Below, piece after piece: positions 13,449 through 18,132 of a stretch of DNA of 64,000 bases. The notes beneath the pieces are model-generated. The model searched no databases, was not told the origin of the DNA, and was given only the letters and a program-made list of their open reading frames with translations. How positions within the stretch are numbered: the first letter of the stretch is position 1; the number at the start of each line of letters is the position of its first letter. Source of the DNA: Actinomycetota bacterium (lineage in GTDB: Bacteria > Actinomycetota > Actinomycetes > Nanopelagicales > Nanopelagicaceae); the NCBI GenBank assembly GCA_009701575.1, contig WLJX01000001.1, positions 61,844 through 125,843 of the forward strand, given 5' to 3'. A program made the position numbers and the translations under genes.

Positions 13449-15707
13449 TTAAGAGGCTTCAAATACTGGGATAGGAAGATCAGGGCGTTCGTGTTTTTGA
13501 TGAGCGACAACGGCCGCTAAATGATAATTCCAAATCAAATCTAGATTTCCTTGAACTGCGTAAGGTCGACCATCTACAAGCGGCCCCTTCTCGCCGTTCA
13601 TCACGGCAATAACATCATCACCGGAAATAGTTTTATAAGTTTCTAGGGCATGCGCTAGCGCAAGTACTTTGAACTTATTCTCACTCAAAATTTCTTCAGC
13701 GCGAATCAGCAAGGATGAAAGGTTGTTTTCAATTCGATCCCCAAGAGCCATTCTTAAATCTTTTGTAGTGTCATCTTTACCGCGGTTTCCTCCTGGGGCG
13801 CCTACCTCGTTACGACGATTGGAAGCGTGTGACGAAATTGTGGAACCCATCCCCCAATGACCTTCCATAAAACTAGCAATAGTAGTTGCGCTCTCTAGAT
13901 CTCCTGAAACTCCTGAAGAGTTATCTCCAGCGAAGAACATCCGTTCACCAGCAAGTGAGGCGACTGAAACTAAAATATCGGCTTCATATTCCGTACGCCA
14001 TCTCGTGAATTGATCATCCGGCGGGATGCTTGCAACCATGCCGAGATAATCCGAACCTTTTTCAATAGTGGCTAGGTCGATTGCCATATGTTGTCTAACT
14101 AAATGCGCCATCACTCCGTGACACGCTTCATGGACAGCAACGGCATGACGTTCACGTTCAATATATTCAACATCTTCCGCCGGCCCTAAATCCTTCAACT
14201 GCTTAGCTTTGATTACATCGCTCAAAGTAATAGAGGTTCGATCATTTCTAATTGCCATGATTAGCGCTTCATTAATTGTGTCTTTGATGATTGCGCCCGT
14301 TGCATATGGTGTGATGATCGCCAATTTATCAATCTCTTCAGCAGTCAAGGAATGCGAAACTTTTGCTAAATAACCCTCGTAAGTTCTAATTCTTCCAGCC
14401 TTGCTTGGATAACCGACTCGATACATTCGATCTATTCGACCAGGACGCAAGAGCGCTTCGTCGAGAGCTTCGGGCATGTTTGTAGCCATCACAACCAGAA
14501 TTCGATACTTCGGTGGATTCTTAGGTCGCATTCCGAGTGCTCGACGAACTACCCGATTAATAAATCCTCTAGGTTTCTTCAACCCGGAAAGTTCGGTCAA
14601 GAGTGCTTGTAGCGTTCCACTTCCCCCACCGCCACCACCTGCGCCGCCCATGACAAATTGATTGCTTGTTAATGCAGCGTTAGTTACAAGTGATTTACCT
14701 GGATCAGATAAATAGTTTCCACCATTACATGGCGTACCAAAAATGCTCTTACTATTTTCATTTGTATACATCTGAGGTCGACTAATGCCTCGGTTGCCCA
14801 AAGAATCCGCCTCGTCGAAAAAGACGACAACACCGCCGTATCGCAACGCAAGCTTTCGTAATTTTCTAAACAGACTCTTCACTTTAAGAATGCCAACACC
14901 CATAAACATATTTGTGAAGGCGCCTGGGTCAACAAAAACAAAGGGCTTTCCGGTTTCACCAGCCATTGATTCGGCCATAAGTGTTTTTCCAGTGCCTGGA
15001 GGTCCCCAGAGGAGGATTCCACCCGGAACATATCCACCATGCTTTTCAATTAGTTCAGGAGTTTCAAGGAAGAGAAGATTCTCGCGAATTCGATTAAGAA
15101 CGTGATCTTGTCCCCAAACATCAGAGAATCTGGTGCGAATGTCATCCGGGAAGTAAGTATCAACTCCACCTCGACTCAAGAACCAGAAGATCGCGCCAAA
15201 TTGAATAATTACGAAGAAAACCGCGAAGAGAAGTTGTCCAAGCATTGGAAGCGCAGACCATAAAGCTTTGGGAGCGAAAAACAGGGCGCGAACTGGAGTC
15301 TCTTTATAAATAGCCCCGAGAACCACTGATAGCAAGGCGACGAAAATTAGCCACTTAATTACTCTTCCTAATCTGAAGCGGTTCCAGTCACTTAGCTTAT
15401 GGAGAATTCGATCTACAAAGGCAAAGTATTTAACCCAAATACCGTGATACGGCGCAAGTAATTCAGCAAGCGCAAAGTGAATCTGCCTAACAACTTCAAC
15501 AGCAACAAGAACTAAAAGCCAAGACTTGGTATTAGCCGTTCTTGAAAGCGCATCACTAAAAGAGAGAAGTGGGTTGTCTGCCATATTGGCCCAAGCTAAA
15601 ACAAAAAAGACAATCGCAAAGAGCATTAAGAACTTAGCCCGGTCGTAAATTGATAGATGGATTCGAGTGCTTCTATCCGTGTCTCGGGGCCGGCTTTGTA
15701 CGCTCAT
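13449..15707 (-). CDS. Divergent FtsH-like membrane AAA+ metalloprotease
   Basis: A 752-residue membrane ATPase-protease related to FtsH but not canonical. About four hydrophobic segments lie in the first 180 residues (near 26-42, 62-80, 117-134 and 157-178), where FtsH has two and a periplasmic domain. Walker A GPPGTGKT is at 235-242, Walker B VVVFFDEAD at 293-301 and the second region of homology MATNMPEALDEALLRPGRIDR at about 407-427 with both Arg fingers. The zinc motif HEACH is at 526-530 and a third-ligand-like Asp lies in SGDLESAT (603). Between Walker B and the second region there are about 105 residues rather than about 45, including a poly-Gly tract (GGAGGGGGG). It overlaps an upstream lipoprotein gene by 4 nt. 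All catalytic residues look intact; its substrate is unknown. Confidence 0.82.
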   Translation of the reverse strand: MSVQSRPRDTDRSTRIHLSIYDRAKFLMLFAIVFFVLAWANMADNPLLSFSDALSRTANTKSWLLVLVAVEVVRQIHFALAELLAPYHGIWVKYFAFVDRILHKLSDWNRFRLGRVIKWLIFVALLSVVLGAIYKETPVRALFFAPKALWSALPMLGQLLFAVFFVIIQFGAIFWFLSRGGVDTYFPDDIRTRFSDVWGQDHVLNRIRENLLFLETPELIEKHGGYVPGGILLWGPPGTGKTLMAESMAGETGKPFVFVDPGAFTNMFMGVGILKVKSLFRKLRKLALRYGGVVVFFDEADSLGNRGISRPQMYTNENSKSIFGTPCNGGNYLSDPGKSLVTNAALTSNQFVMGGAGGGGGGSGTLQALLTELSGLKKPRGFINRVVRRALGMRPKNPPKYRILVVMATNMPEALDEALLRPGRIDRMYRVGYPSKAGRIRTYEGYLAKVSHSLTAEEIDKLAIITPYATGAIIKDTINEALIMAIRNDRTSITLSDVIKAKQLKDLGPAEDVEYIERERHAVAVHEACHGVMAHLVRQHMAIDLATIEKGSDYLGMVASIPPDDQFTRWRTEYEADILVSVASLAGERMFFAGDNSSGVSGDLESATTIASFMEGHWGMGSTISSHASNRRNEVGAPGGNRGKDDTTKDLRMALGDRIENNLSSLLIRAEEILSENKFKVLALAHALETYKTISGDDVIAVMNGEKGPLVDGRPYAVQGNLDLIWNYHLAAVVAHQKHERPDLPIPVFEAS

Positions 15708-16363
15708 TTATTGCCTCTCACTGTAAACGAATCACCAATTGCTTGAAGTTCTGGGCCATGCTTCTTGTAGTACTCCGTCGGAGCGCGAATTAAAAGAACA
15801 TATATTCGTGACCGATCATCAGAAACTAGCGCAGTTTGATCTACGGTTTCAGAGATGCCTGATGGATCCCCAAAGGTAAAAATGGTCCGAACTCCCCTAG
15901 CAATTTTCTCAACTCGTTCATAATCGTCGTGTAAAACGAATTTAGTATTTGCTTTCTCTGGGTCTTTAAGCCACGTCGTAATAGGAAGAATTAGGTTTCG
16001 CAGCGAATTGTAAGAAATCGAATTTAAATCATCATAATTTAGATCGCGCACACGAACATAAACGACTGCGCCTTTTGGGGCCTCTAGACTAAAAATAGAT
16101 GAAGGAATCGTTTCAGGGTATGTTGTATATGCTTCCTGCCAAATCACGCTAGCAAGTCTCTCAGCAGCACCTTCGGCAGTTGATTTAGCCTCGGCGCTAT
16201 TTAGTTGCTTTGTAGAAATCTTATGCCAGCCATTTGGTACGGCTACATAGACGCCGCTGGATTTATCAGCTGCATAAATCTGCGATTGCGAGCAGCTAGT
16301 GAGACCAAAAAGTGAAATTGCCATCAGCGTTCCGAGAGCGAATCGCTTCGACAATTTTTGCAT
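15704..16363 (-). CDS. Lipoprotein, possible LpqN/PsbP-like fold, partner of the FtsH-like protease
   Basis: 219 residues with a lipoprotein signal: basic start MQKLSKR, hydrophobic core, lipobox LTSC (Cys24). The mature part begins near VAVPNGWHKIS and ends EYYKKHGPELQAIGDSFTV, an arrangement reminiscent of the PsbP/Mog1/LpqN fold in which a late helix precedes a terminal SF strand; that assignment is a guess from pattern only. It overlaps the protease gene by 4 nt, so the two are made together. A TAGAGT hexamer sits 5 nt upstream of the ATG, possibly another leaderless promoter. It may be a substrate or an adaptor of the protease. Confidence 0.65.
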   Translation of the reverse strand: MQKLSKRFALGTLMAISLFGLTSCSQSQIYAADKSSGVYVAVPNGWHKISTKQLNSAEAKSTAEGAAERLASVIWQEAYTTYPETIPSSIFSLEAPKGAVVYVRVRDLNYDDLNSISYNSLRNLILPITTWLKDPEKANTKFVLHDDYERVEKIARGVRTIFTFGDPSGISETVDQTALVSDDRSRIYVLLIRAPTEYYKKHGPELQAIGDSFTVRGNK

Positions 16364-16371
16364 ACGGCACT

Positions 16372-18132
16372 CTATCCCTGAGGCTTCTTTTCTGCCACGT
16401 GATCTACGCCGGCCTCTTTACGCTGTGGGGCCGTAATGGGTGTTGGCGCACCAGTGAGTGGATCTCCACCACTTGCGGTTTTAGGAAAGGCGATTACTTC
16501 ACGAATAGATTCCGCGCCAACCAATAGCGCACAAAGACGATCAAGTCCTAGCGCGATTCCACCGTGTGGAGGTGGGCCGTAATTAAAAGCTTCTAGTAAG
16601 AAACCAAATTTGCTTTCAGCTTCCTCTTTCGAAAGACCTATTGTTTCGAATACACGCGCTTGCATCTTTCGGTCATGGATACGAATTGAACCGCCACCAA
16701 TTTCATTTCCATTCAAGACTATGTCGTAAGCATAAGCAAGTGCGTTCGCTGGATCTTTATCAAAGGTATCTGCAAATTCTGGCTTCGGTCCAGTAAATGG
16801 ATGATGTACCGCGGTCCAACCACTATTTGAATCGGCGCTATCAATTTGCTCAAACATAGGTGCATCAACAATCCACAAGAAATTCCAAGATTTTTCATTG
16901 ATCAAGTTGCAACGTTTGCCGATTTCGAGTCGCACAGCACCGAGCAAGTTAAGAGATGAAATTCGGTCGCCAGCAGCAAAAAATATGGCATCTCCTGGCT
17001 TCGCCCCAACATGTCCAACAATTCCTGCAGCTTCCTTTTCTGAAAGATTTTTTGCTACGGGACCGCCAAGCACACCATCAGTACCGACCAAGATATACGC
17101 GAGACCTTTTGCGCCGCGAGCTTTTGCCCAATCTTGCCACGCATCTAATTCGCGTCTTGGAGAATCGGCGCCACCAGGCATGACAACGGCTCCTACATAA
17201 GGAGACTGGAAAACTCTAAATGTTGTGTCTGCATAGAAATCAGTGCAGTCAATTAGTTCATTTGCAAAACGTAAATCTGGTTTGTCAGAACCATATCGAC
17301 GCATAGCTTCCCAATAGGTCATTCTCGGGATCGGTAACGGAATATCGAAATCAACAACCTTCTTAAATACTCTAGATAAAATCTCCTCCGCTACTTGCAG
17401 AATGTCCTCTTGGTCAACAAATGACATTTCAATATCCAATTGCGTGAATTCAGGTTGACGATCTGCTCGAAAATCCTCATCACGGAAACAGCGTGCGATT
17501 TGGTAATAGCGTTCCATGCCTGCAACCATCAACAATTGTTTGAAGAGTTGTGGAGATTGAGGAAGTGCATACCAAGAGCCAGGTTGAAGTCGAACCGGGA
17601 CTAAGAAATCGCGCGCACCTTCAGGGGTAGAGCGCGTTAAATATGGAGTTTCTATCTCTAAGAAATTTTCATCATCCATAACGGTTCTAATTACCGATGT
17701 CACCTTCGAACGGATTCGAAGGTTCTTTGCTGGGCCTTCTCTACGTAGATCCAAATATCGATACTTCAAACGTACTTCTTCGCTGATTGTGTTTAGGTCT
17801 CCACTATCAACTGGAAACGGAAGAGCGGCCGCTTCGCTAAGAACTTCGAGCTCCTCGCAAACAACTTCAATTTCGCCAGTTGGAATATTTGCATTTTCAT
17901 TACCGGCGGGACGGATTCGAACTGTGCCCGTAATCAAAACACACCACTCAGCGCGTAAAGAACCTGCTAAAGCTTCATCGTTAATCACAACTTGCGATGC
18001 ACCGGATGAATCACGGAGATCGATAAAAGCTACACCACCATGATCCCGGCGTCTTGCTACCCAACCAGCGAGAACAACTTTCGATCCCACATCGCTCTTT
18101 CGCAATGAACCTGCAGTGTGCGTTCTTATCAT
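16372..18132 (-). CDS. aspS: Aspartyl-tRNA synthetase
   Basis: Class IIb synthetase of 586 residues. The N-terminal OB fold (anticodon binding) is followed by motif 2 [20 protein letters not shown], a bacterial GAD insertion domain and motif 3 [10 protein letters not shown]. Whether it is discriminating or also makes Asp-tRNA-Asn depends on a gatCAB operon elsewhere. The ATG at 18132 is preceded by GGAG at about 11 nt. It lies downstream of hisS (gap 23 nt), the usual hisS-aspS order. Confidence 0.97.

Follow-up and report, generated by a model that had tools for sequence, protein, structure and literature searches.

A divergent FtsH relative and its own lipoprotein form a conserved gene pair in freshwater and other actinobacteria

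Results

The locus

The window, that is, the whole stretch of 64,000 nt analysed here, comes from a Nanopelagicales (acI) MAG of 1.17 Mb that is 79% complete. Two overlapping genes on its minus strand, flanked by aspS (16372–18132) and by a DUF948 gene that is followed by alaS, encode a membrane protease and a lipoprotein. Their features, with the basis of each in brackets, are as follows.

13449–15707, minus strand: four-TM AAA+/M41 protease, 752 aa, ATG start (ORF, Pfam, tree)
15704–16363, minus strand: PsbP/Mog1-like lipoprotein, 219 aa, upstream gene of the pair (ORF, lipobox Cys, AF2, Foldseek)
15704–15707, minus strand: 4 nt overlap of the lipoprotein and protease genes (ORF coordinates)
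16292–16294, minus strand: lipobox cysteine C24 (invariant in 57 homologues)
15174–15650, minus strand: four predicted N-terminal membrane helices, residues 20–178, with short outer loops and no FtsH_ext domain (AF2, hydropathy, Pfam)
14982–15005, minus strand: Walker A GPPGTGKT, residues 235–242 (motif)
14805–14825, minus strand: Walker B VFFDEAD, residues 295–301 (motif, family alignment)
14616–14786, minus strand: insertion 1, putative enlarged pore loop 2, residues 308–364, with C-[HN]-G-x-x-Y-L and a Gly tract (alignment; pore loop 2 position from PMC12994072)
14727–14729, minus strand: insertion cysteine C327 (invariant, 127/127 members)
14502–14579, minus strand: insertion 2, residues 377–402, basic KKPRGFxNRxxRRxLGMRPKxPPK, after the SGL (ISS-equivalent) site (alignment)
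14430–14486, minus strand: second region of homology (SRH) with both Arg fingers, ATNMPEALDEALLRPGRID (motif)
14118–14132, minus strand: zinc motif HEACH, residues 526–530, C529 replacing the canonical Gly (C529 in 126/127)
13899–13901, minus strand: third zinc ligand D603 (SGDL; 127/127)

The protease

The larger gene product matches the Pfam families AAA (PF00004, 4.1e-24) and Peptidase_M41 (PF01434, 5.9e-23; 82.2 bits against a cut-off of 29.9), and it carries the Walker A and B motifs, Arg fingers and HExxH motif with distal Asp of the AAA+ M41 superfamily. The original prediction had noted the retention of Walker A and B, the two Arg fingers, HEACH and the last of the three zinc ligands. 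All are present (the Arg fingers in LLRPGR), and among 127 relatives spanning 48–97% identity they are invariant or almost so. H526, E527, H530 and D603 occur in every member, as do M267 and F268 of pore loop 1. Catalytic residues that stay invariant over such a range of identity indicate that selection maintains the protein as a working protease and that it is not a pseudo-enzyme; it would carry out ATP-dependent proteolysis as a hexamer. It might instead be a motor that remodels membranes without proteolysis, in the manner of FtsHi or Msp1, and with a structural M41 part, given that HEACH (Gly to Cys) and an Asp to Ser change at the intersubunit-signalling (ISS) site are unusual and that FtsHi motor complexes are among the structural matches. 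However, both His residues, the Glu and D603 are kept in 127/127 members, whereas FtsHi proteins are described as pseudo-proteases (PMC8197885), and we regard this explanation as highly unlikely.

The membrane anchor was expected to comprise about four segments, and four is the number obtained: Kyte–Doolittle analysis gives four hydrophobic segments within residues 18–182 and none downstream, and AlphaFold places helices at 20–44, 62–83, 107–134 and 138–178 with high confidence. No Pfam match was found N-terminal of residue 222, and the outer loops between the helices are of about 17–21 aa, so that this arrangement leaves no counterpart of the periplasmic domain seen in FtsH. Overall, the protease model from AlphaFold has a pLDDT of 66 and is poor in the AAA part, and the arguments about loops and cysteines below are not based on it.

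Two insertions and two cysteines

The distance from Walker B to the SRH is 106 aa, against 40 in the canonical FtsH of the same genome. The roughly 60 extra residues foreseen here are therefore present, but not as a single insertion; the extra residues of the AAA module (about 66) form two insertions, of +45 and +21. Insertion 1, from NRG to TLQ, has 57 aa against 12 in Escherichia coli, and by alignment, with pore loop 2 of YME1 (Y396) and of AFG3L2 as guides (PMC12994072), it appears to sit in pore loop 2, just ahead of the protease chamber. The glycine-rich tract that had been remarked on is there, but it is not a novelty: canonical FtsH is already Gly-rich at this site (GAGLGGG), and the tract is thus an old feature enlarged. 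Insertion 2, conserved and basic, follows the ISS site, where the canonical DGF is replaced by SGL (S374 in 124/127), and has 26 aa against 5. A segment resembling it is present in the nearest sister proteins (L023–L025), which places its origin before that of the family.

The window protease contains only two cysteines, C327 in insertion 1 (within C-[HN]-G-x-x-Y-L-S) and C529 in HEACH, and exactly two in total is also the count in 100 of the 127 members. Loop residues flanking the C327 motif vary freely, so that conservation of the motif is specific, and the nearest relatives of the family have HE[AS]GH together with a loop that has no cysteine. This pattern suggests a functional link between C327 and C529, possibly a thiol or zinc latch. 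One member (L020) has S529 together with C327, and C529 is therefore not strictly required. Matrix metalloproteases, in whose cysteine switch a cysteine occupies the catalytic zinc, provide a model for the zinc option. In its fullest form the scheme would have C327 reach the chamber and either bind the catalytic zinc or form a disulfide with C529, so that the enzyme would stay inactive until released by substrate, zinc or redox state, and the lipoprotein would act as a second input; as a complete account this is speculative, and we think it unlikely.

Separation from the housekeeping FtsH

FtsH is an essential membrane protease. Exactly two M41 genes were detected in the genome, one for a canonical FtsH of 694 aa (at G000:C33) and one for the 752 aa four-TM protease, and a canonical-like ftsH accompanies the family protease in each family-holding genome examined. 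Against the FtsH equivalog TIGR01241 the four-TM protease scores 241.7, below the 600-bit cut-off. In an unrooted maximum-likelihood tree of 61 rows, built from the AAA–M41 core after removal of most of the insertions, three groups are seen: the family (27 rows, 100/100), the canonical-like proteins (22 rows, 100/100), among which are E. coli FtsH and the 694 aa FtsH of this genome, and, adjoining the family, a set of divergent proteins with two TM segments (12 rows, 97/93). Given the long branches and the absence of a root, the split from canonical FtsH is more secure than this sister relation. The family lies outside all canonical FtsH sampled, as had been proposed, and the idea that the window protease is the sole or housekeeping FtsH was rejected on the strength of the second, canonical ftsH gene and the separate tree position.

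At five loci of families f100 and f101 (L133–L135, L151 and L152) aspS and alaS flank the pair, in the same order as in the window. Their lipoproteins group with those of the Nanopelagicales (97/97) and their proteases with those of f86 and f16, a conflict which suggests that one of the two genes was replaced in place, or else an artefact of the trees.

The lipoprotein

The upstream product, the predicted lipoprotein whose gene was correctly said to overlap that of the protease by 4 nt, carries the lipobox LTSC, and C24 is one of four invariant columns among the 57 homologues. Its match to the Pfam PsbP profile (PF01789) is below the gathering cut-off (15.3 against 23.5 bits), and 35 of the 57 homologues match the profile weakly at E<=0.1 (best 1.8e-5). 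The AF2 model has a pLDDT of 93.9, and its best Foldseek matches in the PDB are PsbP, CyanoP and Mog1p, with LpqN lower; a PsbP/Mog1/LpqN fold is confidently predicted. Weaker matches (2e-3 to 7e-3) are to the PsbP-fold proteins EagT6 and SciW, complexed with effector membrane segments. Most homologues have a C-x4-C pair near the C-terminus, which is absent from the window clade.

Conservation of the pair

Co-occurrence of the two genes across genomes, proposed as a check, was found. The lipoprotein gene is directly upstream of the protease gene in 68 of 80 database loci, being absent from nine and cut by contig ends in three. Among 247 genomes of the same class the protease is present in 36 and the lipoprotein in 34, and in both protease-only genomes the protease is at a contig end; among 297 genomes of the phylum the figures are 20 and 17. 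The lipoprotein alone was found in none of either sample (Fisher p = 9e-40 for the class and 6e-25 for the phylum, values that ignore relatedness and come from samples sharing some genomes). The pair also extends to further families and classes, Nonomuraea gerenzanensis included, where its neighbours are different: besides the aspS/alaS setting it is found ahead of a ROK-type kinase gene, ahead of a cysS-like gene and elsewhere. Such unrelated surroundings in different families mark the pair as a self-contained unit, and chance adjacency or operon hitch-hiking in the aspS–alaS cluster was rejected, since the two genes move together to other neighbourhoods. Across the phylum, in freshwater lineages and others, the two genes almost always stand together.

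A comparison between families revealed no third conserved partner gene, the widespread extra ORF clusters being overlapping frames of the pair itself, and neighbouring genes across families gave no pointer to clients. A mobile or plasmid origin was rejected, the only close match in the plasmid collection being an 11.85 Mb Nonomuraea record; this record (NZ_LT559118.1, L194, from N. gerenzanensis) is filed as plasmid I but has the size of a chromosome. An anti-phage role was likewise discarded, PADLOC returning only generic AAA matches (IetA, TRIP13) for the protease and none for the lipoprotein. A second copy of the lipoprotein gene lies at a contig end (G257:C43:29174–29806, L212) in a genome where the pair is present elsewhere, and this genome probably holds two pairs.

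Loss and replacement of the lipoprotein

Within the Nanopelagicales, one lineage (L084, L087, L088, L090–L093 and L095) has the lipoprotein nowhere in the genome, incomplete assembly having been allowed for. At L085 (5930–6000) the final lipoprotein codons persist between aspS and the protease gene, as a deletion scar (or a misassembly), and genome G074 has the protease without the lipoprotein. At least three losses with the protease kept can thus be counted (the Nanopelagicales lineage within L084–L095, L085 and G074), and such repeated loss means that the lipoprotein is not obligatory. In family f15 (genomes G021 and G006) the gene directly upstream of the protease encodes instead a PDZ and TPR-like lipoprotein (L163:6264–7430; L021:287–1399), and the PsbP-like lipoprotein was not found in f15 genomes. 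This replacement in one lineage suggests that a partner outside the membrane is needed and that its fold is exchangeable. The sister clade of two-TM proteases has no such lipoprotein.

Discussion

Bacterial AAA+ membrane proteolysis is usually told through FtsH alone, with its own periplasmic domain and its SPFH partners. We propose that the pair described here probably constitutes, with appreciable room for doubt, a dedicated machine for extraction and degradation of membrane proteins, separate from the housekeeping FtsH; it may serve membrane quality control. Our working model is that a protease hexamer would lie below the membrane with the lipoprotein on the outer leaflet above it, supplying in trans the outward sensing part for which FtsH has its own periplasmic domain. 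The lipoprotein may bind faulty or unassembled membrane proteins, or shield assembled ones, and so present or withhold them, and clients would be drawn by the motor into the M41 chamber, past F268 of pore loop 1 and past the enlarged pore loop 2. This longer loop, which bears the invariant cysteine, probably acts either as a gate to the chamber or as a sensor of redox or zinc state; in AFG3L2, pore loop 2 touches the protease domain and directs substrates (PMC12994072).

The original prediction offered the lipoprotein as adaptor or client, and of these the adaptor fits the one-way dependence better. A lipoprotein never found without the protease, and a protease sometimes found without the lipoprotein, are what an adaptor or regulator would give, more readily than an obligate subunit or a client. 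The overlapping genes and tight co-occurrence might also be expected if the lipoprotein were the principal client, with the protease setting its level or the operon forming a self-limiting pair. However, a lipoprotein with a job of its own should somewhere have outlasted the protease, which it did in none of 544 genome checks (in samples that share genomes), and a protease that persists without the lipoprotein would be left clientless, so that we judge this decidedly unlikely. In photosystem II assembly, CyanoP, a PsbP-fold lipoprotein, appears to guard the D2 module, with which FtsH2/3 co-purifies, against proteolysis (PMC11449106), a precedent for a PsbP-fold lipoprotein acting near FtsH. 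The lipoprotein could accordingly be a CyanoP-like inhibitor or shield that guards a particular envelope complex from the protease and delivers no substrate, a role that would agree with the tolerance of several lineages for the protease without it; yet families share no third gene that would identify the complex to be guarded, and we consider this role rather unlikely.

No named system with this pair had been recognized at the outset, and our literature search, which covered few subscription papers, likewise found neither a named FtsH–lipoprotein or FtsH–PsbP pair in actinobacteria nor a reported function for one. The tree sister of the family is an unnamed FtsH-like clade of Actinomycetota (L023–L032, L185–L187), whose nearest members share a basic segment like insertion 2 but which differs in having two TM segments, HE[AS]GH, no cysteine-bearing loop and no PsbP-like lipoprotein upstream. 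Its proteins are also without a periplasmic domain, and a possible relative, annotated only as an AAA family ATPase and 36% identical to the window protease, is encoded on a plasmid of Thermomicrobium roseum (Thermomicrobiota; L195). FtsH–HflKC and FtsH–prohibitin share with our pair the combination of a membrane AAA protease and a dedicated outward-facing partner; HflKC, however, is of the SPFH/Band-7 type, whereas the partner here is a lipoprotein of predicted PsbP fold from the same operon, and Pfam gave no SPFH/Band-7 match for the window proteins or the 57 lipoprotein homologues. CyanoP (2xb3), also lipid-anchored, reaches a TM-score of up to about 0.7 (normalized by target) with the predicted fold, but identity to PsbP, CyanoP, LpqN and Mog1 is only about 15%, and the lipoprotein here is the operon partner of a protease. 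Mitochondrial AFG3L2 (m-AAA) also has an insertion in pore loop 2, which engages substrate and protease domain (PMC12994072), but of four residues, against about 45 with an invariant cysteine in our family.

The housekeeping FtsH is the first match of the protease in Foldseek and profile searches, and the two share the fusion of AAA motor and M41 domain, the Phe of pore loop 1, the Arg fingers and the zinc ligands. The four-TM protease differs in having four TM segments and no periplasmic domain, where FtsH has two TM segments around one, and in the +45 aa of pore loop 2, the +21 aa after the ISS, SGL for DGF and HEACH for HEAGH. A divergent FtsH relative with its own lipoprotein is a modified version of a known machine and not a new kind of machine. 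The family is common in the abundant freshwater acI and is also present in culturable actinobacteria with larger genomes, Nonomuraea and Pseudonocardia among them, which opens the system to testing. Beside FtsH it represents a second, separately conserved design, with an apparently detachable lipoprotein as its outward part and an axial pore with a large cysteine-bearing loop.
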